Shown: piece by piece, positions 4,517-22,114 of the stretch
Numbering within the stretch: the stretch's first letter is position 1
Layout: every line of letters begins with the position of its first letter
Made by a program: the position numbers and the translations under genes
The notes under the pieces: model-generated
What the model was told of the DNA's origin: nothing
Seen by the model: only the letters and a program-made list of their open reading frames with translations
Database searches by the model: none
IMG/VR virus record: IMGVR_UViG_3300021964_000610
Coordinates: 1 to 22,114 of that record
Strand: one strand, 5' to 3'
DNA: 22,114 nt
From: a virus

Positions 4517-4783
4517 ATGACACTAGGAATAAATAAAAATATTATGTATGAGTTTTATATCAACACTGAGTATGGTATGAGTGTTTGGCATTGGAACTTA
4601 ATTGATTGGCGTAAAGCTCTAAGAGACTTCATAAATTATAAAGACGATGAAGGATTTGTATTTGAAATACAAATAACATATGAAGATGGTTGTGATTTTG
4701 TGGAGATATACCCAAACAATAATACTGATATACTACCACAATACGTACAAAAAGCAGTCAATAAAGTTTTAACTAATTTATAG
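4517..4783 (+). CDS. Unknown 88-aa protein behind its own promoter
   Basis: Begins at ATG 4517 after a strong GGAGGG ribosome site and about 26 nt downstream of a consensus promoter. The protein is acidic and aromatic-rich (several Tyr and Trp, e.g. SVWHWNLIDWRKALRDF), looks like a small soluble alpha/beta fold, and has no signal peptide, membrane segment or known motif. Its last 11 bases overlap the end of the convergent adenylate cyclase gene. A monocistronic, strongly promoted small gene at an operon boundary is typical of a phage early host-takeover or accessory protein, but that is inference. Function unknown. Confidence 0.75.
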   Translation: MTLGINKNIMYEFYINTEYGMSVWHWNLIDWRKALRDFINYKDDEGFVFEIQITYEDGCDFVEIYPNNNTDILPQYVQKAVNKVLTNL

Positions 4784-6506
4784 TATAAATCTTTATAGGT
4801 TTTTCTTTACCCTTTACATAAATTGGCTTAAGAGTTGCATATTCACCTGTGTAACTCTTAATTGTTTCATGACCTATGACTATATCTTTACCAACTTCTT
4901 TAGTAGAACTTTCTAACCTTGCAGCCAAGTTTACTGCATCACCTATTGCTGAGTAATCAAATCGTGAATCGCTTCCCATATTACCTACAACTGCCTCTCC
5001 TGTATTTATCCCTATACCTATCTCTATCCCTAAGTCGGCTTCAGCCATACGTTGGTGTATTTTCACAGATGCTTCAACAGCTCTTTGCTCATGGTCATCT
5101 AGGTCTATAGGTGCATTAAAGATAGCCATCATCGCATCACCAATATATTTATCTACCATCCCTCCACACTCTTTTACTGCATCAGCTTGAATAGTTAGTG
5201 CCTTATTCATAATCTCTGTTACTTGTTCAGGCTCTAGTTTTTCTGACAAGCTTGTGAAGCCACGAACATCTGTAAATAAAAACGTACATCTCCTTCTATC
5301 TCCGCCTAACTTCAAAAGCTCTGGATTATCTTGGAGTTGTTTGACTTGTCTTGGGTCAAGGTAATGTTCAAATTGTTTCTTGATAAGTTGTCTAAGCTTG
5401 TATTGCTTTCTAAAGTTTATATAGAATTGTAAAGTTGCAATAAGTGTCATACTTGTCATGCTCCAAGTCACATCTATGAGTATGTTATTTTGTATGACAC
5501 TATATCCAAAGTAGCCTACTCCTGACATCAAACCACCAACTGATACAATACCCCATGTGATACCTAATCGTGCTATTAGAAGAGCTGTGAGGAAGCCTGA
5601 GACACATAATAATAATAGTTCAACAAACAATCTATAGTCTGGTATTTGTGGCGTATCCATTAACATGCTCTCAGATAACGCAGCTTGAATTTTGTGAGGC
5701 TCTAATAAACCTACCGGAGTTGCTACTTGATTAGTAATACCTTTAGCTGTAAAGCCTACAAATACAAACTTATCTTTTACATTCATCTCAGCTAGTGTAG
5801 TTTGTGGAGTGTCTACCCAACTAATCCACTTACGACCAAGACTATCTGTAGAAACGGGTGGAATACCTCTAACTCTAACCTGTTCTATTCCATTCAGATT
5901 TGTGACAATCTGATAAGTACGACCACCTCCTAGTATTTTTAAAACTTCTGTTCCAAACGAAGCAACCCACCCATTATCTGTTTGTTGTAGTAAAGGTATA
6001 CGCCTTACTAAATTATCTACATCAACTGGTGCAGAGATAGCACCTTGACTAGCTGATTCTTTTAATACATCTATGTTCTCTAAAAATCCTTGAGCCTTTG
6101 GTAAAGCTACTATTGGTCCTTTTATAACTGTACCATGTGTTGCCGGGAAGTTATTGTTGTTTACTTCTGGCATAGCTATAACACTTGCAGAGCTTTGTAA
6201 AGCTTGAGCAAACTCATCATCTCCACCTAATCTATCTGCATGTGGAAATAACATCACCCAACCAACACCTAACGCACCAGCATCCATAATCTTTTTATGA
6301 ATACTTGCTAAGTCTTGACGAGGTAGAGGATATCCTCCCATATTATCTAGGTCTTGTTCAGTAATGTTAAGGGTTGTAAAGTATCCAGTAGGTTCTGGAG
6401 TTGTGACAACAGCATCAAAAGTCTTTAGTCTTAGTACTTCAAGTGGTACACTGTTGAACAGGAGAGGCAACGTAAGTAAAGATAATAAGGTGATAGACCA
6501 CTTCAT
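4773..6506 (-). CDS. CHASE2-domain class III adenylate cyclase
   Basis: A 577-aa membrane protein predicted to make cAMP from ATP in response to an extracytoplasmic signal. Order: N-terminal hydrophobic anchor (1-20), CHASE2 sensor domain (about 25-290), three membrane helices (about 293-315, 316-338, 343-363), a short linker and the class III cyclase domain (about 400-577). Catalytic residues are intact: metal-binding D413 (FTDVRG) and D457 (YIGDAMM), transition-state N526 and R530 (NLAAR). Purine-selecting K453 and D523 specify ATP rather than GTP. The ATG follows AAGGAG within the end of the FecR gene, with a 1-nt gap, so the two are co-translated. CHASE2 cyclases beside FecR-domain proteins are a known arrangement in bacteria. 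On a phage genome it is unexpected. No cAMP receptor is encoded in the window. Confidence 0.93.
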   Translation of the reverse strand: MKWSITLLSLLTLPLLFNSVPLEVLRLKTFDAVVTTPEPTGYFTTLNITEQDLDNMGGYPLPRQDLASIHKKIMDAGALGVGWVMLFPHADRLGGDDEFAQALQSSASVIAMPEVNNNNFPATHGTVIKGPIVALPKAQGFLENIDVLKESASQGAISAPVDVDNLVRRIPLLQQTDNGWVASFGTEVLKILGGGRTYQIVTNLNGIEQVRVRGIPPVSTDSLGRKWISWVDTPQTTLAEMNVKDKFVFVGFTAKGITNQVATPVGLLEPHKIQAALSESMLMDTPQIPDYRLFVELLLLCVSGFLTALLIARLGITWGIVSVGGLMSGVGYFGYSVIQNNILIDVTWSMTSMTLIATLQFYINFRKQYKLRQLIKKQFEHYLDPRQVKQLQDNPELLKLGGDRRRCTFLFTDVRGFTSLSEKLEPEQVTEIMNKALTIQADAVKECGGMVDKYIGDAMMAIFNAPIDLDDHEQRAVEASVKIHQRMAEADLGIEIGIGINTGEAVVGNMGSDSRFDYSAIGDAVNLAARLESSTKEVGKDIVIGHETIKSYTGEYATLKPIYVKGKEKPIKIYTIN

Positions 6507-6507
6507 G

Positions 6508-7695
6508 TTAATCTCCTTGCGTTATTTTTATAGTAGAGTCTCCTCCACCATTGACAATGACCTGAGTACTCTTACCGTTTTGAATCATAATAACTGTATA
6601 AGCGTTAGACCTATCTAAGTCTAGCCTTACAGTGTCTTCTAGAGACTTGTAAAAGGTTATAAGGTTGTCAGTTAAGAATGTGTTGATTTGGGTGTTAGAG
6701 TCAAAGCCAACTTGAGTTCCTTTTAAATCTATGTCAGTCTTTAAAAGTGATTCAGTATTGTCTAACTCATTTACCTCTTCTATGATGTCTAGTAAATCTT
6801 CTAGAAAGTTTACATCAAGATAATTTATATCTAACTCTGTAAACTCTAACTCATCTTCTGCAAGATAGTCTACGTCTAAATCATCGAACTCAAGGAAGTC
6901 AACATCAAGAATATTAGAAACGCCATTTCCATCTTGTCCTTCATCTTCTTGTTCTACTTCCTGTGGTTCATTTACTATTAACATGTTATCAATTAACTCA
7001 AGAGTCAAGTCAAGTATAACGGGTTTGGTTGGTTCAGTCTCGTACATTGAAACTGTAGTAGCTTGGTAAGGCTTGTTAAGTGTTACCTGTCCCATAGCTG
7101 TTGCGACAACAATCTCTCCACTTGGAAGACCATCATCGTCTGGTAATAATATAACTAAACTTCTACCTAGTTCATCTACAGTAACTGTAAAGTCTGTACC
7201 ACGAATAGCTATCGTAGCACTAGGAGTTTGTATGGTTATATTTTCTTTATCTATTGTAGCTAATTTACCAGTGATAAATCTTGCAGTACCACTAGCAAAC
7301 TGAAGTGCCATCTTAGATTTAGACGGGTCTGGGTCATAGATAAACTCGTCTATTATTAGTTCAGAATGTTCAGTCAAACGAACTTGACTGTCATCTAAAA
7401 AAGTAATGCCCAGTCTCCCGTTAGAAGTCTGGACATTGTCATAACTGTTTATGTTGAAATCTAATGCAGCTTGAAAAGTTTCTTTTCTTACTACTCTTCC
7501 GGCTCCATTAAGTTCTGTTATATTTCCTATATTAGCAGCTAGTTGTTGTTCCGCCATCGTTTTGAACGACACAAACAGTACCATTACTACCAACAGAATC
7601 AATCTGTAACCAGTCTGCAGCCAATTTTGATGACTGAATAATGTTAAATGTTCTGTTGCTTCCTGTTTGGTCAAGATAGAAATATCCACCTGCAT
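6508..7695 (-). CDS. Exported FecR-domain protein with acidic repeats, partner of the CHASE2 cyclase
   Basis: Predicted extracytoplasmic protein of about 395 aa. The FecR domain (about 79-175) shows the usual DNVQTSNGR, FLDDSQVRL, IIDEFIYDP and IAIRGTDFTV strands. No cytoplasmic anti-sigma domain and no sigma factor are seen, so this is the stand-alone periplasmic type found with CHASE2 cyclases. A hydrophobic stretch (about 31-46, LILLVVMVLFVSF, then KTMA) sits exactly where FecR homologues have a signal peptide. It lies wholly inside the overlap with the curlin-like gene. ATG 7695 is preferred because AGGA lies 7 nt before it. GTG 7701 is the longest start, and ATG 7557 would remove the export signal. 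After the FecR domain comes an acidic region with four D-[VI]-[DN]-[FY]-L repeats and a short Gln/Asn/Gly tail that recalls a curlin repeat. Confidence 0.85.
   Translation of the reverse strand: MQVDISILTKQEATEHLTLFSHQNWLQTGYRLILLVVMVLFVSFKTMAEQQLAANIGNITELNGAGRVVRKETFQAALDFNINSYDNVQTSNGRLGITFLDDSQVRLTEHSELIIDEFIYDPDPSKSKMALQFASGTARFITGKLATIDKENITIQTPSATIAIRGTDFTVTVDELGRSLVILLPDDDGLPSGEIVVATAMGQVTLNKPYQATTVSMYETEPTKPVILDLTLELIDNMLIVNEPQEVEQEDEGQDGNGVSNILDVDFLEFDDLDVDYLAEDELEFTELDINYLDVNFLEDLLDIIEEVNELDNTESLLKTDIDLKGTQVGFDSNTQINTFLTDNLITFYKSLEDTVRLDLDRSNAYTVIMIQNGKSTQVIVNGGGDSTIKITQGD
6802..6912 (-). repeat. Acidic D-[VI]-[DN]-[FY]-L repeats in the FecR protein
   Basis: The encoded segment contains LDVDFL, LDVDYL, LDINYL and LDVNFL in about 37 residues, with Asp/Glu-rich spacers. 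It is a low-complexity acidic linker between the FecR domain and the C-terminal tail and could bind cations or form a stalk. Confidence 0.7.
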
Positions 7696-8248
7696 ATCCA
7701 CTTCCTGTAAAGTTTACTGTGTTGCTATCTCCATCTACATCAACGTAGTTAGTAGCACCATCGTAGTTAATATCAAAGTCAAATGTATTACTATCACCAT
7801 TAATAATCCAGTCTAAGTCTGTGTTACTAGACATAGCTAACGTAGCTAAGTCAAGTGTAAAAGTATTACTATCTCCAGTAACATCTACATTAACATCAGA
7901 ACCATCTGCTCCATAAGTATTTGTTGGGTCTACTTGTATAGTAAAGTTATTCCCACTTCCATCAAACTCAAAAAACCCTGTGAAGTTATCAGCTAAAATA
8001 TCTCCTAAGAACTTATTAGTATCTCCAATTTGATTGATGTCTAAAGTCAAGGAAGTTCCATCCAAGTCTAAAGGTGTTAAAGTTCCAGCTACGGAATTCA
8101 AACCACCAATAATATTTGCAGAACCTAACTGTTCTAAATCTATGTTAGCTGTAGCACCCGATTGGTCAACATATATTTCGTTATCAGCCCCGTATGTTGG
8201 CAATGCACTCAGCATCACAAACAGGCTCATTAATTTTAATATTTTCAT
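7532..8248 (-). CDS. Curlin-like (CsgA/CsgB-type) repeat protein, secreted
   Basis: A 238-aa protein with a clear signal peptide (residues 1-20, ending PTYG before ADN). The mature chain is Asp/Asn/Gly/Thr-rich and built from short strands that match the curlin pattern Q-x-G-x-x-N: Q29..G31..N35, Q40-L-G-S-A-N45 and Q73-I-G-D-T-N78. A second set reads G-D-S-N-T-[FV] at about 125, 151 and 173, followed by alternating hydrophobic strands. QTGSNRTFNIIQ lies near 194. These suggest a stacked beta-solenoid or amyloid-forming subunit exported through the CsgG pore encoded just upstream. Only two cysteines exist, C226 and the C-terminal C238. It starts 65 nt inside csgG, and its last 164 nt overlap the FecR gene. 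Sequence drift from enteric CsgA is large, so polymerisation is inference. Confidence 0.78.
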   Translation of the reverse strand: MKILKLMSLFVMLSALPTYGADNEIYVDQSGATANIDLEQLGSANIIGGLNSVAGTLTPLDLDGTSLTLDINQIGDTNKFLGDILADNFTGFFEFDGSGNNFTIQVDPTNTYGADGSDVNVDVTGDSNTFTLDLATLAMSSNTDLDWIINGDSNTFDFDINYDGATNYVDVDGDSNTVNFTGSGYAGGYFYLDQTGSNRTFNIIQSSKLAADWLQIDSVGSNGTVCVVQNDGGTTTSC

Positions 8249-9038
8249 ATTTCCAATAGCCTCTCTCTATTCCTATTTTTATAATATTTAGAACACCTGT
8301 CTCTATTGCCTTCTGCAAAGCTATAGATACAGATTCATTCTCCGATACACCGCCTTCTATTTCTACCAGCTCTGTGCCAGTTTCAATAAACCTAAATATA
8401 TCTTGAGAAATACTAGTGGAGATAATGCTCTTAGAAACTAACGTCTCTGTAAGCACTTCTCCTGTTGATACAGATACTAACCTTAATGATATAGTAACTG
8501 TATCTTCCCTGTACTGCTTACTGTTACCTACTCCTAGGTATCTAGCTCCAGCACCTCCAGACTTGAGATTAGCTTCGTAACTAATTACCCCACCCTGAAT
8601 CAACAACCCTGCAAATAGCAGAGGTTTCATTTTATTATCTTCTTTAAACTCTTTACGAGTACTTCTTATAAGTTGTCTTTCTTTTGTTAGGTCATCCAAG
8701 CCTACTCTTTCTACAACTCTAAAAAACTTTCCATCCGATGTATGCTTCAAAGCTCTTATAAGAAAAGCTTCTGGAGCTTGTGTAATAGCTGTACTAAATA
8801 AAGCAAAGGTACTATTACTTCTTCTCTGTCCTGTTAAATCTTTAAAGCTATTAGGGTATATAGCTATAGTCGGCATTACTGTAGCCGGTGGTAAATTCTT
8901 TAACTCTTCTGACTGTAGTTCTAAAATGTCCGGAGATTGTATTTTCTTTGTTAATAATAAATCTTCGTTATGACTTATAACCGCACAGTTAGAAAGTAAA
9001 ATTGCCAACAGGCAAGGAAATAGTCGTTGTATCACCAT
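8184..9038 (-). CDS. csgG: Curli secretion pore lipoprotein CsgG
   Basis: A 284-aa outer-membrane lipoprotein that forms the curli export channel. A signal peptide ends in the lipobox LSNC, with lipidated C18. The Asn before the cysteine is less usual than Gly or Ala. Conserved CsgG segments follow: DLTGQ, FSTA, V-x-E-R-x-G-L, NERK-like KERQLIRS, GGVISYEANLKSGG, GARYLGVG, VSTGEVL, FRFIE and the final ETGVL..IERGYW. Resemblance to E. coli CsgG runs over nearly the whole chain. The loop between TGQ and FSTA, which forms the pore constriction, differs: the E. coli PYPASN residues are replaced, with only the final Phe kept. The first 50 nt overlap csgF. The last 65 nt overlap the curlin-like gene. 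Confidence 0.95.
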   Translation of the reverse strand: MVIQRLFPCLLAILLSNCAVISHNEDLLLTKKIQSPDILELQSEELKNLPPATVMPTIAIYPNSFKDLTGQRRSNSTFALFSTAITQAPEAFLIRALKHTSDGKFFRVVERVGLDDLTKERQLIRSTRKEFKEDNKMKPLLFAGLLIQGGVISYEANLKSGGAGARYLGVGNSKQYREDTVTISLRLVSVSTGEVLTETLVSKSIISTSISQDIFRFIETGTELVEIEGGVSENESVSIALQKAIETGVLNIIKIGIERGYWKYENIKINEPVCDAECIANIRG

Positions 9039-9498
9039 TTGAATCCGTTATTGTTAAAGTTATTATCCCATCTATAACAGTGTATTCTATTCTGTTACCT
9101 TCTAATTCTAGTACACCACTATCGCTAGGAGTCTCACCAAACAAGTTCTCTACAAGTTGTCTAGATAATTGTGCATATATTCTAGACTCTAAGTTTCTTA
9201 TAAACCTTGCAAGTGTTGTGTTCTCTTTATCTCTTTCTATCTCATCTTGTAAAGCTTTTATCTCTGCTTTCAAAGCTGCCTTACGATTAAACTCTTGGTT
9301 TTGTATGGTTAGATAATGTGATGATGTACCAACACCATTAAAGCTAGGGCTTTTAAATTTAAATACCATCTCATCTGCAAAGACTTTAGAGTTACCCCAG
9401 AAAGCCAACAACATCAAACCAAAAACAGCTACTTGAACTACAGAAGCAACTGTAATCTGTTTCATAGGATGTACTTTTTCTAAATCATTTAAGTTCAT
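8989..9498 (-). CDS. csgF: Curli assembly factor CsgF
   Basis: A 169-aa secreted protein. A hydrophobic export signal spans about 13-41 with cleavage after KVFA, exposing a mature N-terminus DEMVFKFKSPSFNG. This matches the CsgF N-terminus (TMTFQFRNPNFGG in E. coli) that inserts in the CsgG channel. The C-terminal beta part also follows CsgF (IEYTVIDGIITLTITDSNG, then TTTISLPVGNF). The central helical region (about 70-118), with heptad-like charged residues, is longer than in E. coli CsgF (138 aa). ATG 9498 overlaps the stop of the 28-aa membrane peptide as ATGA, which favours it over an internal ATG at residue 12. CsgF couples the pore to curlin nucleation at the cell surface. Confidence 0.9.
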   Translation of the reverse strand: MNLNDLEKVHPMKQITVASVVQVAVFGLMLLAFWGNSKVFADEMVFKFKSPSFNGVGTSSHYLTIQNQEFNRKAALKAEIKALQDEIERDKENTTLARFIRNLESRIYAQLSRQLVENLFGETPSDSGVLELEGNRIEYTVIDGIITLTITDSNGDTTTISLPVGNFTF

Positions 9499-10993: not shown

Positions 10994-13900
10994 TTATTTT
11001 ATTGGCAGCTTACCATCTAAAAATATATAATTTTCCATTAAATCATCAGTAGTTTTTACAACTTTATATCCTTGTTTTTGTAAAAAGTTTGTAACTGAAG
11101 GAGGCATAGAAGATATATATCCCGAACCTTCTTTTTTATTAAGTTTTAAATTCTTTTGAAATTCTTTTAAACTTCCTACTTTTCTAAGGTCCTTTTCTTT
11201 TTTTATTTCAGCTTGTAACTTATTTAAAATTTTATTGCTAGGTTTGTCTGCATTAAATACTTTATCTTTACCTAATTTTGCAGGATTAAAAGCTTGTCTA
11301 GATATATCAGACGTATCTATTTTATAAACAGTTCCTTTAGGATAAGAATAATACCTAGCTAGTCCTTTACTTTTTGTTGTATAAACACCGCTTTGTAAAT
11401 TTTCAGAAGGTTTAGGACTTCTTATATTAGTAGCTGTTATATCCTTTAAATTTTTTTTCGGACTACCATGTAATACAGTTTTAGGCATAGTAGCTTTCCC
11501 TATAACTTCTTCTCCTACTTCTTTTAAACCTTTACCAAATTTAAAAGCTCCCAATCCTAACAGAACATCTGCTACAGGAGATACTTGTTTTAGTCCCGGC
11601 TCATCTGGTCCTCTATCTATTTCACTTGTGCTTCCATCTTCATGTGTTCTAATTATTTTATTATCTAAAACTTCTATTTCAACAATAGGACTCATGTTAG
11701 AACCACCTCTAGCAAGTCCAAGTCTAATTATCTGTTCAGAATAAGGGCTACCAGTAAAAGGGTTTACCCTATCTGCAGGGTTTTCTTTAGTGTAGGGTAC
11801 GTCCTTACCCTTTACTATCCCACCTTCAACTTTTCCTTGTCTTTCTTGTAACTTTTTAAACCCTTCTTCACTTAGTTTTCCTTCAAGCTCTCCAAGTTTT
11901 TTCTGATAAATTTCCCATTCAGCATTTAGTGCGTATAATTCTTCTTGTAATTTTACCCTTCTCTTTTCAGCTTCTTCACTTGTTAAATTACCCTTTCTAA
12001 TTTCTTTAGGTATACTTTTAATTTTTGTATTTATTTCATCTCTTTCTTTTTGATGTAAAAAGGTTTTTAATTTTTTATTAGCATAAGCATCTTGAGGTCT
12101 CAATCTCAAACCAAACATATAAGCTAAAGCTAAGAACGGAGTATCGTTTGCTATGTATTGTGAACCATAAACTCTTTCTCCGTCTAATTCTCCTATATCA
12201 ATTCTTTTTGCTTTTTCATATCTTCTAGTACCGTAAGCTCCTTTTAAATATGGAATATTAGGAATTTGAGCTTTTGCAAAATGAGCTGCTATCGAACCTA
12301 TATTATCAGTATCAACTCCATATTCTTCTAAATCTCTTCCAGTGTAAGGGTCTTGCTTTGAAAATGCAGTATAAAAAGCATCGAAGAAAATACCACCCGG
12401 TTGAAAGTTTGCAGGTACTCCGGGTAAACCTACTTCAGTGCTTCTTTGTTCAAATATATCGCCACCGGGAATCCAACGACCTACATCAAGATAAACTGCA
12501 TTTCCATTTTCATCATCAACAGGCATTCTTATGTTAGTGTAAGGCATTAAGTCTCCAACAGCAGGAACACCACCAAACATTCTTTTATTATATTCTTGTC
12601 TTACAGTAAGCCTATCCATTTCTTCACCAAGTTCATCATCAGCTAAGTATGTAAATCCTTCATTTAAACCATAACCAAAAGCACCCCATTTAATAAATTT
12701 TTGAGGTCTTAAAATAGCAGATTCGGCTAGTAAAGGTATTACTCTATACGTATAACTTATAAAAGGAACCATAGTTCTTTTCAATGCTTGAACTGCAGTA
12801 GCGTTAATATCGTAATCAATAAACCACTTACGTGCATCTAAAGCTGCATCAGACCTTGAAAAACCTTTGTTAATTCTATCCATATAAACAGCCATTCTAA
12901 ATATTTGGTCTTCAAGCTGATAAAGTCTTTCCATTTTTTCAGCAGGTAGTTTGCCATATTTTTTTGTCATTTCCCAAGTTTTATCTAAAATACCAGCTCC
13001 AAAATTTTCTTTGTTTTGTAGTTTTGTTAAAGCTCTTTCTATTTCACTAAGTTCATTACCTAATTCTTTAGATACTAAATCAACATCAAATATACCATCA
13101 ATTTTTGCTTGTCTATGTATTTTAGAATTAGGATTACGCATCTCTTTAATTCCTTTAAAAAGCATTTTCAAACCATCAAAAAGACCATCACCAACATCTG
13201 CAAAATCTAATAACATTACGTTGGAAGCTGTATTACCTACGTGAGTAGGAACACTCCAAGCAGTTTTAGTTTTTTTCCAAAGTGTTTGAAGTTTGTCAAA
13301 ATATTTTGCTATAGGAGCTTTTGCAGCTTTATCAATAATTGAAAAGTTAAAAGTATGTTTTATATCTTGTAATACATTTTTTTCTATATACTTACCACTA
13401 AGCTCTCCATACTTTAATTGTTTAGTTCCTTGAACTCTACTACTAGGCATCATTGCAAAACGATTTTGTTCACTTTTTGGCAAAGCTTTCCAATCAGCTT
13501 CATCTAAAACAAAGTTTTTATTTTTAGATAAATCATCAAAGAATCTTGCAGTAGATATATCATGTGCAAATAATCTACCTGTTTCTGCTATAGCGTATGA
13601 AGCATTTTCAATTTCTTCTAAATCTTTTCTTTCTTGTTTAGTGTACTGTCTTCTTACTTTAACTTTACCACCTTTTAATTCTTCTAATATTTCCCACCCT
13701 TCTTTTTTCCATTTAGAATTAACATTATCAAAATCTTTTTTAGTAGTAGTTTCAACTAAACCTCTTGGCTTAAGCTCATCTCCAATAATTCTAATTTGTT
13801 TATTAGTTTCATAAAAAACTTTATCTGTTTCTTGTTTAGGTTTTCTATAAGTTCTTTTTATATAAGTATCAATATTTTTCTTAAAAACTTTTTCGTCTAA

Positions 13901-15709
13901 CATTCCTCTATCAACAAATTCTAAAGCATATTTTGTAATTAAAGCACGTGTTTCTGCGTTTAAATTTAAAGCTTCAGGAGATAATTTTTCTATAGAAGCT
14001 ATATCCCCATTTATCAAACCATATAAAAGTGTATTTTGCTCTTCGTTTAGTTCTTTACTAGCTTTTTCTACAATGTCTTTAAACTCCATAGCTATTTCGT
14101 TTTTATTAGCTCTAAAGTTTTGTTTTAATTTAATATATTCTGGTCTTAATCCATACTTATCTATAAACATTCTACCTACAATATCTTTAAAATTGTCAGG
14201 TGTATTTTTAACTCCGTATCTAGTAACTCCTGCACCACTTATAGTTCCTATTAAACCTGCAGTAAGTTTTTGTGCGTAAGTAGCTTCTGGGTTATCTATA
14301 GCATTATATCCAATATAACCACCAGTAAAACCTCCTAGCGATTCTGCAGGATTATTAAAAACTATATTATATAAAGGTGTTCCAACTTTATCTTTGTAAG
14401 CTTGACCAACTGAGTATTTTACTGAATATTTTTGGTCAGTAGGTTTACTAATTTCTTGAACTATATGTGTTTCTAAATCTTTTTGATTAGCAATAGGAAC
14501 TGTTTTATTAGGTTGTATATTATTTCTAACAAATTGTTTAGCATCTCTGAGACTTCCAAATAAATTAATTTGTGTTAATGCTTTTTTTCTTCTGTTAAAA
14601 TCAGCAATACTTTCACCCTTTTTTCTACCTCTTAAAAAAGGTATAGTTGTAACTTCCCATTGTTTAGGAATAATATTACCTTGCTCATCAACTGCTTTTT
14701 GTATACTATAAGTAATTTTATTTTTAGAATTTGTTGCTTTATAGATTGGATTACCTTTAGTTGTTTCTTTGTCTATAACAAAAATAACATCTTTAGGTTT
14801 TTCTGCAACTTCTTCACCAAGAACAACACCTTTCTTTTTTTGTTGTCCGGGTTTAGTATCTTGTAAATCATTAAGAGAAAATCTTTTAGTAGCTGTATTT
14901 CCTGTTTCTTTATTAACAAAACGTACTGTAGCTACACCCTTCTCTTCATCTAATTCTATAACAGTTCCAATGTTTTTTCTGTCTTTAGCACGAACTGTAG
15001 AACCTACAGTGATTGGCTGATTTAATGTATCTTCATCTACAAAGTCATCATCAAATTTTTTTGGCTCTATTTCATCAGGTGCAAAAATTCCGGGCTTTCC
15101 TCTAGCTTTTTGTATTACATCTACACTTTTACCTATTGCCGGTCCTAAAATTCCTCCTGCTATTAATCCAATACCTGCATTTTCTAAACGTCTTTCTATT
15201 AAAGAAGCATCTTCATCTAAAAGTAAGGTTTCTTTATCTTCAGGAGTATAGCCCAAAGAAGAAACAATAGCACCTGTAGACCCTCCATAAATTGCAAGGT
15301 CTTTTAAATTTTTCGCTTTTTTACCTTTAGAAATCCATCCAGCTATAGGTATGTAACTTACTGGGTCTGCTGCTATTGCTGAAGTAAGGAAAGCAATGTT
15401 AGCGTCTTTACCATATTCAGGATGTTCAAGTATAGCTTGTAGTTTTTTATCTTTCTTTTTTAAACTATTGGTCAAGGCATCCCAACCAAAAAAATCACCG
15501 CCTTTACCAAATAACTGTGCTATCCCTCTAAGTGAATCAGAAACTCCCATAGATGTAGCATAATCTATAGCTTCATCTTTATTTAGTTTATATAAAGGGT
15601 TTATATTATCTCTTATATATTGAGTTCTTTCATCAACAGGTTCTTCAGCACGATACATAGAATAATTATTTGCCTGTTGAGACATGCTTAATCTTGATGG
15701 AAAAGCCAT
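10994..15709 (-). CDS. Giant ejection/internal virion-type protein (1571 aa) with ADP-ribosyltransferase-like C-terminus
   Basis: Very large protein with an AAAGGAG ribosome site. The N-terminus has Gly/Ala/Ile-rich hydrophobic stretches (about 103-125, 138-153, 178-195) able to enter membranes. A KOW/SH3-like segment (about 232-283, VGSTVRAK..GTVIELDEEKGVATVRFVN) follows. The long charged helical centre (about 500-1250) includes aromatic stretches such as WSVPTHVGN and FISYTYRVIPLLAES. The last 165 residues look like an ADP-ribosyltransferase fold of polyvalent-protein type: H1414 in LHGS, Y1443 in SGVYTT, a GTVYKID strand, and E1559 in MENYIFLDG. Size, membrane-active segments and position beside the other virion genes suggest a T7 gp16-like DNA-ejection protein. 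No lytic transglycosylase motif was recognised. Homology needs a profile search. Confidence 0.75.
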   Translation of the reverse strand: MAFPSRLSMSQQANNYSMYRAEEPVDERTQYIRDNINPLYKLNKDEAIDYATSMGVSDSLRGIAQLFGKGGDFFGWDALTNSLKKKDKKLQAILEHPEYGKDANIAFLTSAIAADPVSYIPIAGWISKGKKAKNLKDLAIYGGSTGAIVSSLGYTPEDKETLLLDEDASLIERRLENAGIGLIAGGILGPAIGKSVDVIQKARGKPGIFAPDEIEPKKFDDDFVDEDTLNQPITVGSTVRAKDRKNIGTVIELDEEKGVATVRFVNKETGNTATKRFSLNDLQDTKPGQQKKKGVVLGEEVAEKPKDVIFVIDKETTKGNPIYKATNSKNKITYSIQKAVDEQGNIIPKQWEVTTIPFLRGRKKGESIADFNRRKKALTQINLFGSLRDAKQFVRNNIQPNKTVPIANQKDLETHIVQEISKPTDQKYSVKYSVGQAYKDKVGTPLYNIVFNNPAESLGGFTGGYIGYNAIDNPEATYAQKLTAGLIGTISGAGVTRYGVKNTPDNFKDIVGRMFIDKYGLRPEYIKLKQNFRANKNEIAMEFKDIVEKASKELNEEQNTLLYGLINGDIASIEKLSPEALNLNAETRALITKYALEFVDRGMLDEKVFKKNIDTYIKRTYRKPKQETDKVFYETNKQIRIIGDELKPRGLVETTTKKDFDNVNSKWKKEGWEILEELKGGKVKVRRQYTKQERKDLEEIENASYAIAETGRLFAHDISTARFFDDLSKNKNFVLDEADWKALPKSEQNRFAMMPSSRVQGTKQLKYGELSGKYIEKNVLQDIKHTFNFSIIDKAAKAPIAKYFDKLQTLWKKTKTAWSVPTHVGNTASNVMLLDFADVGDGLFDGLKMLFKGIKEMRNPNSKIHRQAKIDGIFDVDLVSKELGNELSEIERALTKLQNKENFGAGILDKTWEMTKKYGKLPAEKMERLYQLEDQIFRMAVYMDRINKGFSRSDAALDARKWFIDYDINATAVQALKRTMVPFISYTYRVIPLLAESAILRPQKFIKWGAFGYGLNEGFTYLADDELGEEMDRLTVRQEYNKRMFGGVPAVGDLMPYTNIRMPVDDENGNAVYLDVGRWIPGGDIFEQRSTEVGLPGVPANFQPGGIFFDAFYTAFSKQDPYTGRDLEEYGVDTDNIGSIAAHFAKAQIPNIPYLKGAYGTRRYEKAKRIDIGELDGERVYGSQYIANDTPFLALAYMFGLRLRPQDAYANKKLKTFLHQKERDEINTKIKSIPKEIRKGNLTSEEAEKRRVKLQEELYALNAEWEIYQKKLGELEGKLSEEGFKKLQERQGKVEGGIVKGKDVPYTKENPADRVNPFTGSPYSEQIIRLGLARGGSNMSPIVEIEVLDNKIIRTHEDGSTSEIDRGPDEPGLKQVSPVADVLLGLGAFKFGKGLKEVGEEVIGKATMPKTVLHGSPKKNLKDITATNIRSPKPSENLQSGVYTTKSKGLARYYSYPKGTVYKIDTSDISRQAFNPAKLGKDKVFNADKPSNKILNKLQAEIKKEKDLRKVGSLKEFQKNLKLNKKEGSGYISSMPPSVTNFLQKQGYKVVKTTDDLMENYIFLDGKLPIK

Positions 15710-15722
15710 TTATTTAACTCCT

Positions 15723-17300
15723 TTAATTTTGTAAACTATAAACTAATGTATTTCTTGTATCGTCCCAAAATATTTCTTGATTTCCTTTGAGTCCTAGATT
15801 AGGAAATAATTTTTCAAAATCAAAAACACCTAATGAAAATACTTCTTCACCTTTTTCTCTTCCAGCATTAATAGCAGGTCCTATAATTTCATATAGGTCA
15901 GAGCTTGAATCTGTTATTAAGTCATTGTAAAATGATAAATTTTCTTGAGAAATTTTCTCACTTAAATCTTTTTTATTTTTCATTTTTATTTCATAAACAC
16001 TTGTAGAAGGTGTCATATCGTCTGCTGTTTTAGTAAACTGATTTCTCATAGTAACCTCATCAAAACCCATTTCTTCAGCTATTTTTCTTTTATCATCTAA
16101 AATAGTATAGACACCATCATTATCACTATCTCCAGCAATATTTTCACCACTAGCATCTCTTACATATTGAATTTGTGTAGAATACCAAGAAGGAAAAGCT
16201 TTTTCTCGATTAGCTACATCTGTCCAATCAATAGCATAAGCATCTGGGTTTTCAGTTAAATATTTACGTGCTTCTTCAAATTGCTTATAAGTAGGTAGTC
16301 CATCACCTTTAGTCTGTAAAATAGCCATAATGTTTTTTTGCTCTTCAGGTTTTACAAGTTTATAAAGATTTTCTATTTCTGATAGTTTTACTCTATCTTC
16401 TCCTGTACGACTTGTAACTTCTGCAATAACATGTTTGTTTTCTTTTCTATATTCTACGTTTCCATCTGGAGTCATAGTAGCTAAAGAAACAATAACTTTT
16501 TCTGTGGTTACACCTTTTATTTTATCTACTTCTGTTACAGTTTCTTTTTGTTCCATATTAGGAACTAATCTACCAGTAGTTAAGTTTAATCTATTAATAA
16601 TTTTAGCAGCATCTATTCCTTGATTAGTTACAGTATCGTATGCTCTTAAAGCTGTAGACAACTCACCAAACTTATCAAACATAGCAGTTCCGTATAGTGC
16701 ATCATCAGCTCTTTCATTTTTTAATTTTAAAGTTTCTTCGGTTTCTTTTCTTACAAAACCTTTAGCTTTAGAACCTATCCAAGATGCTAAGTTTCTAGGA
16801 ATATCTGCTTGTTGTTCATAGTATTCTGTAAAGTCTTCAAAGGTTGGTATATTTTTTGTAGTTTCAATTAAATTATTATACGAAGTTAAATTAGCTTTTG
16901 CTAGTCTTGAAGCTTCTTCTCTCAAAGCTTTATTATATTGAGCAGGACTTAGATAACTAAAATCTTTCTGTGCTTCAGTTTCAAGTTGAGTAAAGTATTT
17001 ATTTTCTAAATAATCTTCAACACTTAAACCTAATTTAACTCTTTCAGTTTCAGCAGTTCTAAAGTTTTCACTTCTAGTAAGTAAGTTTTGATAAGCTGCT
17101 TTCTGTGGTAATTGTTTTGCATCTAACTCTTCAGCTTTTTTATTAATTAAAGCATTAGCACCTCTAACAGCAGTATCAAACATAAGAAGTCTTTTAGCAA
17201 ACTTATCTTGTTTTTTTATTTGCTTTTCTCTATAGTCACGAGCTTCATCTATTTTTTGCTGTGCAAAATCTAATCTTCCTTGGTAATCATATCTTGACAT
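15723..17300 (-). CDS. Probable virion/internal protein (525 aa)
   Basis: Starts at ATG 17300 after AAGGGG. The first 130 residues are strongly helical and charged (begins MSRYDYQGRLDFAQQKIDEA), followed by mixed alpha/beta sequence. A D-S-D-N-D-G-V-Y-T turn near residue 397 resembles a calcium-binding loop (DxDxDG). There is no signal peptide or membrane helix. It is placed between an acidic virion protein and the giant ejection-type protein, as internal core proteins are in T7-like phages, so an internal virion or ejection role is likely. No family is recognised from sequence alone. Confidence 0.65.
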   Translation of the reverse strand: MSRYDYQGRLDFAQQKIDEARDYREKQIKKQDKFAKRLLMFDTAVRGANALINKKAEELDAKQLPQKAAYQNLLTRSENFRTAETERVKLGLSVEDYLENKYFTQLETEAQKDFSYLSPAQYNKALREEASRLAKANLTSYNNLIETTKNIPTFEDFTEYYEQQADIPRNLASWIGSKAKGFVRKETEETLKLKNERADDALYGTAMFDKFGELSTALRAYDTVTNQGIDAAKIINRLNLTTGRLVPNMEQKETVTEVDKIKGVTTEKVIVSLATMTPDGNVEYRKENKHVIAEVTSRTGEDRVKLSEIENLYKLVKPEEQKNIMAILQTKGDGLPTYKQFEEARKYLTENPDAYAIDWTDVANREKAFPSWYSTQIQYVRDASGENIAGDSDNDGVYTILDDKRKIAEEMGFDEVTMRNQFTKTADDMTPSTSVYEIKMKNKKDLSEKISQENLSFYNDLITDSSSDLYEIIGPAINAGREKGEEVFSLGVFDFEKLFPNLGLKGNQEIFWDDTRNTLVYSLQN

Positions 17301-17301
17301 T

Positions 17302-17904
17302 TTATTGTCCCCTTTCTAATAAACTTTGTTGTGGTTGAGCTTGTTGTTCTTCAACCATAGGCTCTTCAGGTTGAGCCAATAAACTTTCTTGTGGTATTTC
17401 TAAAGATTCTATTTTTTCTACTATATCAGAAGGTAAAGCACCACTAGGTATTTGACCTTTATCAACTTTTTCTTTTATAGTTTCTGCTATATTTTTAGAT
17501 TTTTCTTCAAATAAAGTATCATCTTCTTCATCTTCATCTTCGTCATCTATTCTATAATCTACACCAGCTTTTTCCGCTAATGCCATTAATAAATACATTA
17601 AAGGTTCCATTAACATCATCATTAAGTCTGGGTTCCATTTACCTTCTCTAAATCCTACATAACCTATTTGCATTGCTAAATCAGTTATAGTAACACCATC
17701 GCCTATAGCTCCAACAATAGACATGTAAGCTTCTTCTTCTAATAATTCAGCAGTAGTATAATCTAAAGCTTCTTTAAAGTTTGTAAAGTCTGGCTGTCCT
17801 TCAAACGGTCTAGGCTCATCTGGATTAGATGTTAATGATTGACCCGGTATAGGTCTACCAGCTTGAGCAAAAGCATCGACAGCTTCTTGATTATACTCTT
17901 CCAT
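17302..17904 (-). CDS. Acidic virion-associated protein (200 aa)
   Basis: Starts at ATG 17904 after TAGGAG and ends 1 nt before the next start. The N-terminus contains GRPIPGQSLT followed by NPDEPRPFEG. I recall similar segments in structural proteins of marine phages, but this was not searched. A methionine-rich hydrophobic helix (about 93-111, PDLMMMLMEPLMYLLMALA) is followed by an acidic run of 11 Asp/Glu in 12 residues (about 120-130) and a Gln/Glu-rich tail. The position within the structural block supports a virion role. No enzymatic motif is seen. Confidence 0.6.
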   Translation of the reverse strand: MEEYNQEAVDAFAQAGRPIPGQSLTSNPDEPRPFEGQPDFTNFKEALDYTTAELLEEEAYMSIVGAIGDGVTITDLAMQIGYVGFREGKWNPDLMMMLMEPLMYLLMALAEKAGVDYRIDDEDEDEEDDTLFEEKSKNIAETIKEKVDKGQIPSGALPSDIVEKIESLEIPQESLLAQPEEPMVEEQQAQPQQSLLERGQ

Positions 17905-19022: not shown

Positions 19023-22000
19023 TTATCCTTGTCCAAATATTCTATCTATAGTACTAGATGCATTATTAAAATTACTTGACCAGTTCTTAGCAGCATCTCC
19101 TTCAGAACCAGCAGCAGCTATCATAGCTTGTAATTTTCTATTAGCATCGTTCTCAGCAAATCTAAAATCATAATCTGCTTGGTCTCTTAACTCTTGCCAT
19201 AAGAATGATTGAGCTGATGAAGTTAATCCAAAAGCATTCTGTGCATTCTGTTGATTAACTGCATTCTGTGCTGCAGTGTTTGCAGTATTAGATTGTCTTC
19301 TCCAAGTAACATTAGAATTTATTACTGCTTGTTCGTTAGCAGCATTCCATTGTTGCCTATTAAAATCTAATTGAGCATTAAATTGATTGACTTGATTTAA
19401 TATAGCAGCATTAGCTTTATTAACATCTGCAGTTCTTTGAGCATCTCTAGCATTTGCAGCATTTTCAGATTGAACATTAAACTGTTCCATAGTGTTTAAT
19501 TGAGCAGTGTTAAATTGTTCCATCTGTGAATTTAAACTTGCCATAAACTGATTGACTTGATTTTCTGATGCAGCATTGAATTGTTTAGCAGCATTTTCAG
19601 CAGATTGATTAGATAACAATCTTTGTTGTTCTTGTTGAGCAGATAACATATTAGCTTGTTGCTCATTATTAAGATTAGTCATATCCATCTGTAAAAATGA
19701 TGATGCTCTCTGTGCTTCTAACTTTGTACGTGAGTCAAGCTCTGCTAAGTTTAATGAAGCTTTTGTAGTTGCATCTTGCATAATAGCTTGTTGCTCGTTA
19801 TTAAGATTTGCAAGTGTAGCAGTTTGCATAAACTTACTATTAGCTAAAGCAGTTTGTTGTTCTGCATTAAAGTTAGCCATGTCCATATTAGCATTAATTT
19901 GAGCATTAGTCATTGCAGTTTGTTGCTCATTAGAAAGCTCTGCAAGTCCCATTTGTTGTGCTAAGTTAGCATTAACTTCAGCAACTCTCATCTTCTTATT
20001 TAGATTAGCTAACTCAGTCTGATTAGCAGCAGTCATGTTTTCACTATCTGCTTGATTCTTAGCTGTAAGATTTGCAAGTGTTATTTTCTCTTCAGCACTT
20101 AACTTAGCAAACTCTGCTCTTTGTCTTAACTCTGCATTTTGTGATAAGACATTTGCAGATGTTGTAAGTTCTTGTAATCTAAATCTATTAGCTTCTGTAA
20201 AGTTTGCACTATCTGCAGCAGCTTTTTCTTGCAAGTTTGCAAGTTCCATTTGGTTCTCAGCAGACATATTTGCTAAGTCCATTTGCTGTGCTAGTGAAGC
20301 GTTAGTCTTTTTAAAGTCTACAAGAACATTAAGATTAGTAAGTCTAGATTGTTGTTCAGCAGACATTGATTCTCTTGCAGCTTGATTCATTTCTGACAAG
20401 TTTGCAAGTTCTACTTTTAAATCGTTACTAAGATTTACTTCTTCCATTCGCTGATTAAGTTCAGCTTGTCTAGCATTTCTATCTACTTTAGCTTGGAACT
20501 CTGTAAGTCTTACTTGTTGTTCAGCACTTAAGTTTTCTCTACCGGCTGCGTTAAGCTGTTCAAGATTAGCTAAATCAAGTTTAGTTCCTGTATCAAGATT
20601 AGCTAAAGCAACTTGTTGTCTTTGTGCAGATTCTTGAGAAGCTCTTTGCTGCTCATTCTGAATGTTCTGCATTCTTGTTTGCTGCTCTTGTTGAGCTGTA
20701 GTTATTACTGCTTGTTGTTCAAACTCAGCTTGTTTAAGTACAACTTGCTGTGCCATCTGTGCAGTTTGTGAAGCTGCTGTTTGTCTATTAGCAAGATTAG
20801 TCATCCTTTGTTGCATGACTTGATTAGCTTCTTGTAAGTTTGCTTGTTGTTCGTTACTTAAGTTTTGTGAAGCTCTTTGTTGTAAAGCTTGTGCATTACT
20901 TTGTGCTATTGGTAAAGCACTTTGAATAATAGCATTGAATAATGAATCTCTACCAACTGTTGAAGCTGACATACCTCTTTGAGCTAACATAGCATTAACT
21001 GCATCTACAGCAGGTCTAGCCCATACAGGAGTTTTATTTTCTTCTATTCCAGCAAGTAAACCTTCCATCTGTGTAGATACTAAAGCTTCTTGTGGAAGTG
21101 CTGCTACTGCTGCTTGAACATTAACAGGTGCTGTGTCTAATTGAGCTTCTACTGTTGCAGGGTCTTCTACAACTGCTGCTGTTACTTCTGGTGGCATCTC
21201 TGCTACAACAGCTAACATATCTGCTGCTGCAGTTTTACGAGCTTCTCCAGTTACTGCTTGTCTTGATGCAGCTTGTAAAGTTGGTACACCACCTATCTGA
21301 GCAGCATCACCTTTAGCAACTCCATCAGATGTTATTGCAGCTCTTTCAGTAGCATCCATACTTGGAGCTGTTCCTAACTCTTGTGCTATTCTTGTATTAG
21401 CTTCTGCAACTTGTGCAGTTCTTTGACCAACAACATTAAATTGTGGGATATCTTCTAAGTTTACACCTTCACCTGTAACGTTAGCAAGTATATCTGTTTT
21501 TTGTTTTTCACTTATTATCTCTGCAGTTCTTGTAGTAACTGTAGCATCATCAACAGGTGCAACTACTGCTGCAGCTCTTTTATCTAATGCTTCTACTAAA
21601 GATTCAGGACTAACTTGACCTCTTACTTCTGGAGCAAGAGCTTTATTAATTTCTTCTTGTGCAACTTGTGCAGCTTCTGTAGGACTTACTTCTGCAGCTT
21701 TTTGTATTTTTGGAATAGCTTCGTTAGATAAACTACCAATAGCTTCAGTAACTTCAGGAGCTTCGTCTTCTCCTATTAATTTTACATCTTCTATAGTGGC
21801 TGCTTTAATTTGGTCAGGAGTAACACCTTTTTTAGCTTCTCCTAATGCTACTGCTTCTGGAGCTTCTTGAGCTAATGTAGTAGCAGTTACTGCTTCTGTA
21901 GGTTCTAATTCAACTGTAGGAGCTTCTGTTCCCTCCATAGAAATCTTTTCAACTTCTGCAGTAGGAATCATACCTTCTGGTATTTTTCCAGCAGCTATTT

Positions 22001-22114
22001 GTTCTGCAGTTCTACCAGTTTGTATTGCTCTTGTACCTCTTTCTGACTCAAACAAATCTTTTTTCTGTTCTTCAGTCATTTCAGCAAATTCATCTTCAGT
22101 AATAGTTTTTTTAT
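19023..22114 (-). CDS. Very large Gln/Asn/Ala-rich helical repeat virion protein, 5'-truncated
   Basis: At least 1029 residues, open to the right window edge. The frame continues upstream of the ATG at 22079 without a stop, and that ATG has no ribosome site, so the true start is probably outside the window. Layout, numbered from that Met: an acidic Ala/Glu/Thr-rich region (1-390), a long Gln/Asn-rich helical region with strict 11-residue periodicity (about 405-830), an Asn-rich region (830-950), then a C-terminal part with aromatics (LWQELRDQADYDFRF). Such a protein would form an extended right-handed coiled coil, as in a fibre, whisker or tape-like element. It opens the visible structural block. 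The exact virion role is unknown. Confidence 0.7.
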   Translation of the reverse strand, partial: KKTITEDEFAEMTEEQKKDLFESERGTRAIQTGRTAEQIAAGKIPEGMIPTAEVEKISMEGTEAPTVELEPTEAVTATTLAQEAPEAVALGEAKKGVTPDQIKAATIEDVKLIGEDEAPEVTEAIGSLSNEAIPKIQKAAEVSPTEAAQVAQEEINKALAPEVRGQVSPESLVEALDKRAAAVVAPVDDATVTTRTAEIISEKQKTDILANVTGEGVNLEDIPQFNVVGQRTAQVAEANTRIAQELGTAPSMDATERAAITSDGVAKGDAAQIGGVPTLQAASRQAVTGEARKTAAADMLAVVAEMPPEVTAAVVEDPATVEAQLDTAPVNVQAAVAALPQEALVSTQMEGLLAGIEENKTPVWARPAVDAVNAMLAQRGMSASTVGRDSLFNAIIQSALPIAQSNAQALQQRASQNLSNEQQANLQEANQVMQQRMTNLANRQTAASQTAQMAQQVVLKQAEFEQQAVITTAQQEQQTRMQNIQNEQQRASQESAQRQQVALANLDTGTKLDLANLEQLNAAGRENLSAEQQVRLTEFQAKVDRNARQAELNQRMEEVNLSNDLKVELANLSEMNQAARESMSAEQQSRLTNLNVLVDFKKTNASLAQQMDLANMSAENQMELANLQEKAAADSANFTEANRFRLQELTTSANVLSQNAELRQRAEFAKLSAEEKITLANLTAKNQADSENMTAANQTELANLNKKMRVAEVNANLAQQMGLAELSNEQQTAMTNAQINANMDMANFNAEQQTALANSKFMQTATLANLNNEQQAIMQDATTKASLNLAELDSRTKLEAQRASSFLQMDMTNLNNEQQANMLSAQQEQQRLLSNQSAENAAKQFNAASENQVNQFMASLNSQMEQFNTAQLNTMEQFNVQSENAANARDAQRTADVNKANAAILNQVNQFNAQLDFNRQQWNAANEQAVINSNVTWRRQSNTANTAAQNAVNQQNAQNAFGLTSSAQSFLWQELRDQADYDFRFAENDANRKLQAMIAAAGSEGDAAKNWSSNFNNASSTIDRIFGQG
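19608..19937 (-). repeat. 22-residue (66-nt) helical repeats
   Basis: Residues 715-824 continue as 22, 22, 44 and 22-residue blocks starting LSNEQQT, FNAEQQT, LNNEQQAI and LNNEQQAN. The DNA copies are partly conserved, e.g. the element GCTTGTTGCTCATTATTAAG near 19660 recurs near 19790 with one change. Confidence 0.75.
19938..20597 (-). repeat. Four 55-residue (165-nt) supra-repeats, each 22 + 33 residues
   Basis: Residues 495-714 divide into alternating 22- and 33-residue blocks, each opening with a motif such as LSAEQQ, MSAENQ, FTEANR, LSAEEK or MTAANQ and usually carrying LANL about nine residues later. All block lengths are multiples of 11, i.e. a hendecad coiled coil with a 55-residue higher-order period. 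Confidence 0.8.

Follow-up and report, generated by a model that had tools for sequence, protein, structure and literature searches.

ADP-ribosyltransferases (ARTs) packaged in phage heads are known from T4 Alt and have been predicted in the virion RNA polymerase (vRNAP) proteins of N4-like phages. The active site of T4 Alt is of the R-S-E type, whereas the ARTs of polyvalent proteins have been described as H-Y-D (PMC5512222). The latter include the N4-like vRNAP polyvalent protein of Roseovarius Plymouth podovirus 1, in which an ejected giant podovirus protein is fused to an H-Y-D ART, and the ART-PolyVal family (Pfam PF18760), which belongs to the Tox-ART-HYD2 clade (PMC5512222). The anti-CRISPR protein AcrIF11 (PDB 6KYF, 8DWQ), in which D146/E147 have been described as catalytic residues (PMC12421852), is likewise a small phage ART of the H-Y-D type. 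With regard to DNA entry, T7 gp16 is modelled as a protein with parts in the periplasm, the membrane and the cytoplasm that passes through the inner membrane two times, and its N-terminal transglycosylase is absent in P22-type homologues and hence not obligatory (PMC8954989).

In the window analyzed here, a virus record of 22,114 bases, a gene on the minus strand (10994..15709) encodes a protein of 1571 aa, in which a T7 gp16-type ejection core is followed by a linker and a putative ART domain. This open reading frame, its coordinates and the motifs named in an earlier examination of the DNA letters (the sequence-only reading) are all present as quoted: LHGS with H1414, SGVYTT with Y1443, GTVYKID at residues 1459-1465 and MENYIFLDG with E1559. 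The core of the protein (residues 1-1332; 11714..15709, minus strand) gave no protein-family match itself and was assigned through its relatives. Relatives of residues up to ~1332 were found at at least 58 viral loci, with 27-67% identity, and a second scan gave more; the region common to them spans residues ~25-1332. The N-terminal parts of 17 of 29 core relatives matched PHROG 342 (phrog_342, internal virion protein with endolysin domain; best 1.2e-10), and one of the 29 matched a DNA ejection protein family. When the core family profile was compared with PDB sequences, the same stretch matched Gp29 of 9vvp (E 0.0058) and, weakly, T7 gp16 (E 0.7). The order of the genes also resembles that of T7 gp14-gp15-gp16, as a 200-aa protein (17302..17904), a 525-aa protein (15723..17300) and the 1571-aa gene are followed by an endolysin, a phage lysozyme (10515..10982; all on the minus strand). 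The 200-aa protein is a candidate counterpart of T7 gp14 by gene order and size (gp14 has 196 aa; PMC8954989), and the 525-aa protein a candidate counterpart of gp15 by gene order.

Thus, as judged from its relatives, the remainder of the protein belongs with the T7 gp16-type ejection proteins, in agreement with the ejection-type role first proposed for it. It shares with T7 gp16 and PHROG 342 the core family, the length class and the place in the structural gene order; however, it has no N-terminal transglycosylase (Pfam gave no SLT match in the 1571-aa protein) and carries an exchangeable C-terminal module instead.

The relatives end or diverge at the linker (residues 1333-1404; 11498..11713, minus strand), which begins at Gly-Gly and includes a hydrophobic, helix-like stretch at residues 1373-1391 according to a hydrophobicity calculation. 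Many of the relatives terminate no more than a few residues from position 1332, with the endolysin gene overlapping them or coming next, while others carry C-terminal tails of about 100-520 residues and, in one case, of ~810 residues. The modules at this slot comprise glucosaminidase (L042, L088), SLT (L052), tail lysozyme (L037, L094) and methyltransferase (L020) domains and an HExxH-like, protease-like motif (L014), and the fused tails of L036 and L046 are ART-PolyVal domains above the Pfam PF18760 cutoff. At the loci L023, L024 and L025, a stand-alone gene bearing ART features lies between the core and the endolysin, which is exactly the place of the ART in the window. A maximum-likelihood tree of the core had good support for 27 of its 32 inner branches; on it, the ART label requires 4 changes and all tail types taken together require 15, indicating that ARTs were gained or lost repeatedly (at least 4 times) at this slot; they are fused to the ejection protein in three separate lineages (the window; L036/L040/L050; L048). 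With other enzymes attached at this point in relatives, the ejection protein resembles a vehicle whose enzyme tails can be exchanged.

Several other proteins of these loci were noted. The ~810-aa tail, on the same core (L081:1946-4372), had no Pfam match and contains GVYLSR and IDMSK stretches that recall ART. The giant protein gp54 of the HMO-2011-type pelagiphage HTVC104P (L118:20094-25010) lies in a related gene order and has methyltransferase-like and lysozyme-like stretches at its C-terminus, and the exchange of C-terminal modules may thus reach HMO-2011-type phages as well; however, its similarity to the core is very weak, and no ART was found in it. Asn/Thr-rich repeat proteins, possibly curli-like repeat or surface proteins, were seen downstream of the endolysin at two loci (L012:12944-15996; L007:11980-12612).

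The C-terminal domain of the window protein (residues 1405-1571, ~167 residues; 10997..11497, minus strand) was delimited by a profile match (residues 1405-1555), by alignment and by an AlphaFold2 (AF2) model. On its own, it had no credible match in Pfam, PHROGs, NCBIfam, PDB sequences or phage records; PF18760 produced no match at E<=1, the cutoff of the Pfam model not being reached, and a back-translated pattern search of viral and genome contigs returned no relatives of the domain. The same kind of search with the separate-gene ARTs recovered only these genes themselves. The ART assignment therefore had to be tested through relatives. A profile that covered the variety of ARTs at the slot and left out the window sequence scored the tail at 24.8 bits, compared with at most 9.4 bits in 3000 shuffles, and at E = 1.3e-4 among 4540 ORFs, the next unrelated ORF being at 0.23; by this measure, the sequence homology of the tail to recognized ARTs is beyond chance. 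An early small ART profile had also ranked the real tail first of 2001, with a narrow margin. A profile of 70 GTGEG-type ART-PolyVals did not score the tail above shuffles, which places the domain outside that narrow ART-PolyVal clade. An ordered H-Y motif, a pattern written after the sequence had been seen, was absent from all 200,000 shuffled versions of the tail and from every unrelated ORF in a set of 1062 (at least 150 aa), and its matches were all ARTs or ART candidates. Moreover, the domain matched the separate gene of L024 (phmmer E 0.002), which in turn matched PF18760 at E=4e-4, below the Pfam cutoff, and PARP at E 0.025, while a profile-profile comparison of the two ART sets was weak (probability 21, P 0.001). 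On these comparisons, residues ~1405-1571 are probably a distant ART domain of the H-Y-[D/E] side.

In the alignment, the motifs of the tail are collinear with those of ART-PolyVal, in the order H1414 (strand 1; 11468..11470), G-x-Y1443 (strand 2; Y1443 at 11381..11383), A1451..Y1454, VFNADKP, G1547..D1555 (D1555 at 11045..11047) and N1560-Y1561-IFLD (N1560 at 11030..11032; all on the minus strand). The last strand of 70 phage ART-PolyVal domains reads N-[YF]-V-V-F-[DNS], with Asn in 54 of the 54 that could be scored, and the window has N1560-Y1561-I-F-L-D1565 here, N1560 being aligned with this near-invariant Asn. Similarly, 62 of 66 phage ART-PolyVal domains have an Asp 8 residues past the Gly of the G-[IV]-x-G-I-x-Y-x-D motif; the window counterparts are G1547 and D1555, and the ART profile aligns D1555 at this position. 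In AcrIF11 (chain 8DWQ), G-F-R-G-V-S-M-Q-D-E-Q-G-T-C-Y puts D146/E147 at the same spacing as D1555, the G..D..Y spacing of this loop being shared with the window without a gap. Because D1555 aligns with the Asp of ART-PolyVal and with D146/E147 of AcrIF11, and polyvalent ARTs are H-Y-D, the triad is likely H1414-Y1443-D1555, with His in strand 1, Tyr in strand 2 and the acid in a late strand or loop. Of the H-Y-E pattern put forward in the sequence-only reading, the ART tail itself (by the leave-window-out profiles) and H1414 and Y1443 are retained. E1559, the residue directly preceding N1560, was rejected as the catalytic residue on the alignment, in which D1555 is the acid and N1560 the conserved Asn, and it is probably not catalytic. 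The separate ART-like genes in the same slot of L023 (L023:11977-13056) and L025 (L025:11688-12878) have Asn at the aligned catalytic Asp, and the latter also lacks the His; these proteins may be inactive or changed in function.

The domain therefore has the H-Y-D configuration and the N-[YF]-V-V-F-D-type strand of ART-PolyVal, with which it shares the strand-1 H, the strand-2 Y, the D in G-x-x-x-I-x-x-x-D and the N-Y-x-x-x-D strand, and these motifs bear out its suspected likeness to effector domains of polyvalent phage proteins. The 1571-aa protein is, moreover, a large multidomain phage protein, as expected of an ART-PolyVal carrier, with the ART at the end of a protein predicted to be injected. 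However, the window domain is unrecognized by PF18760, has no GTGEG loop and a shorter D-to-N loop (5 residues), and its carrier is a T7 gp16-type ejection protein, whereas that of Roseovarius Plymouth podovirus 1 is a virion RNA polymerase. AcrIF11 differs in being free-standing and expressed after infection and in having its important Tyr (Y46) at another place, and no sequence-level match between it and the window domain was found by search. With T4 Alt, the resemblance is one of working, in that an ART is proposed to enter with DNA; the assignment to the T4 Alt type did not survive, as membership of the T4 Alt/VIP2 clade requires R-S-E (PMC5512222) and the aligned positions in the window are H-Y-D, and the ART clade and the carrier of T4 Alt are also different.

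The predicted structure of the tail was compared as well. An AF2 model from 25 aligned sequences (pLDDT 67.9, pTM 0.53) has an ART-like order of strands and helices; a first model from 5 sequences (pLDDT 46) was discarded. The fold search called for in the sequence-only reading was indeed led by an ART among PDB entries, AcrIF11 (6kyf), but the match was weak (E 0.2, TM about 0.3), with tankyrases lower down. Several models named ART-PolyVal were among the top viral structure matches, and VIA-align listed only KptA chains (ART superfamily) and an ejectosome chain at Z 2.7, a result that settles nothing. All the fold matches are weak, and as the AF2 alignment included ARTs, the fold evidence is partly circular; it is consistent with an ART rather than decisive.

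We consider it reasonably probable that the window encodes an H-Y-D ART effector as an exchangeable C-terminal module of a T7 gp16-type protein, carried in by the ejection machinery, where packaging, delivery, activity and target are what we infer. The fusion would be part of the head contents and leave the particle at infection together with the other ejection proteins, and the enzyme would reach the interior of the new host, or its inner membrane, ahead of phage gene expression. There, the ART may use NAD+ to ADP-ribosylate a host macromolecule (a component of transcription, translation or defence), a host modification that would favour takeover.

Other explanations of the tail can be weighed against this proposal. 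The motifs might be chance resemblances in a Lys-rich, low-GC tail that is not an ART, as the failure of the domain alone to match any database and of the narrow GTGEG-type profile to recognize it could suggest; given that the shuffle-tested motif and the leave-window-out profiles stand against chance, and that the tail is syntenic with the recognized ARTs of relatives, this is extremely unlikely. It is also distinctly unlikely, given that the window has kept the H, Y, D and N positions, that the tail derives from an ART but serves as a pseudoenzyme or non-catalytic binding domain, retained for virion assembly or membrane docking, even though the slot tolerates complete absence of the tail in relatives and the ART-like genes of L023 and L025 depart from the aligned active site.

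The main doubt concerns the compartment that the module would reach. As gp16 crosses the inner membrane twice in the T7 model, the C-terminal tail could finish up on the periplasmic side, where the module might work, or the module might act on components of the phage or the envelope, in the way expected of the hydrolases found at this slot; the glucosaminidase, SLT and lysozyme modules would fit a tail located in the periplasm. However, NAD+ is absent from the periplasm, and the NAD+ needed by an ART and the SAM needed by the slot-mate methyltransferase are both cytoplasmic cofactors, which makes a periplasmic site of action very unlikely. A real ART might instead act late in the producing cell, or be made free from a start at M1339, with delivery alongside the DNA incidental or absent. 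At the core/ART junction, a Shine-Dalgarno-like AGGTGG stands 7 bases before the ATG of M1339 (11693..11708, minus strand), a possible, speculative internal start read in the sequence; its predicted product, a free ART of 233 aa, is similar in size to the separate L024 product (247 aa), and L023, L024 and L025 all have the ART as a gene of its own between core and endolysin. Nevertheless, the fusion of ARTs to the ejection protein in three separate lineages speaks against such a role, as does the absence of M1339 in the close fused relative L011 (GGNTTPLFE, compared with GGSNMSPIVE in the window), and we regard it as unlikely.

A broader proposal can be advanced, although only tentatively and with somewhat less confidence than even chances would express: the gp16-type ejection proteins of these marine podoviruses may constitute a modular delivery vehicle, the C-terminus of which is a swap site where ARTs were recruited several times beside methyltransferase, protease-like and cell-wall hydrolase modules, and the ejection machine may also deliver a range of host-modifying enzymes as the phage enters. 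A DNA-entry machine common among podoviruses would then serve marine phages as an effector injector too. No report of an ART fused to an ejection or internal virion protein was found by title or abstract in the open-licence literature. The core tree implies at least 15 switches of module type at this slot, and the tail modules are short, specific domains that are open to testing.

The host is likely of the SAR11 type. The window also has RNR genes and endonuclease I, as well as a curli/type VIII secretion cluster (4773-9498, minus strand) composed of a CHASE2-cyclase, FecR, an unknown protein, CsgG and CsgF; a curli-type cluster has already been reported in pelagiphages (PMC9599517). Upstream (19023-22079, minus strand) lies a 1018-aa protein with long imperfect repeats of the NEQQ/NLNN type, whose nearest counterparts are in the pelagiphages HTVC103P/104P/115P.
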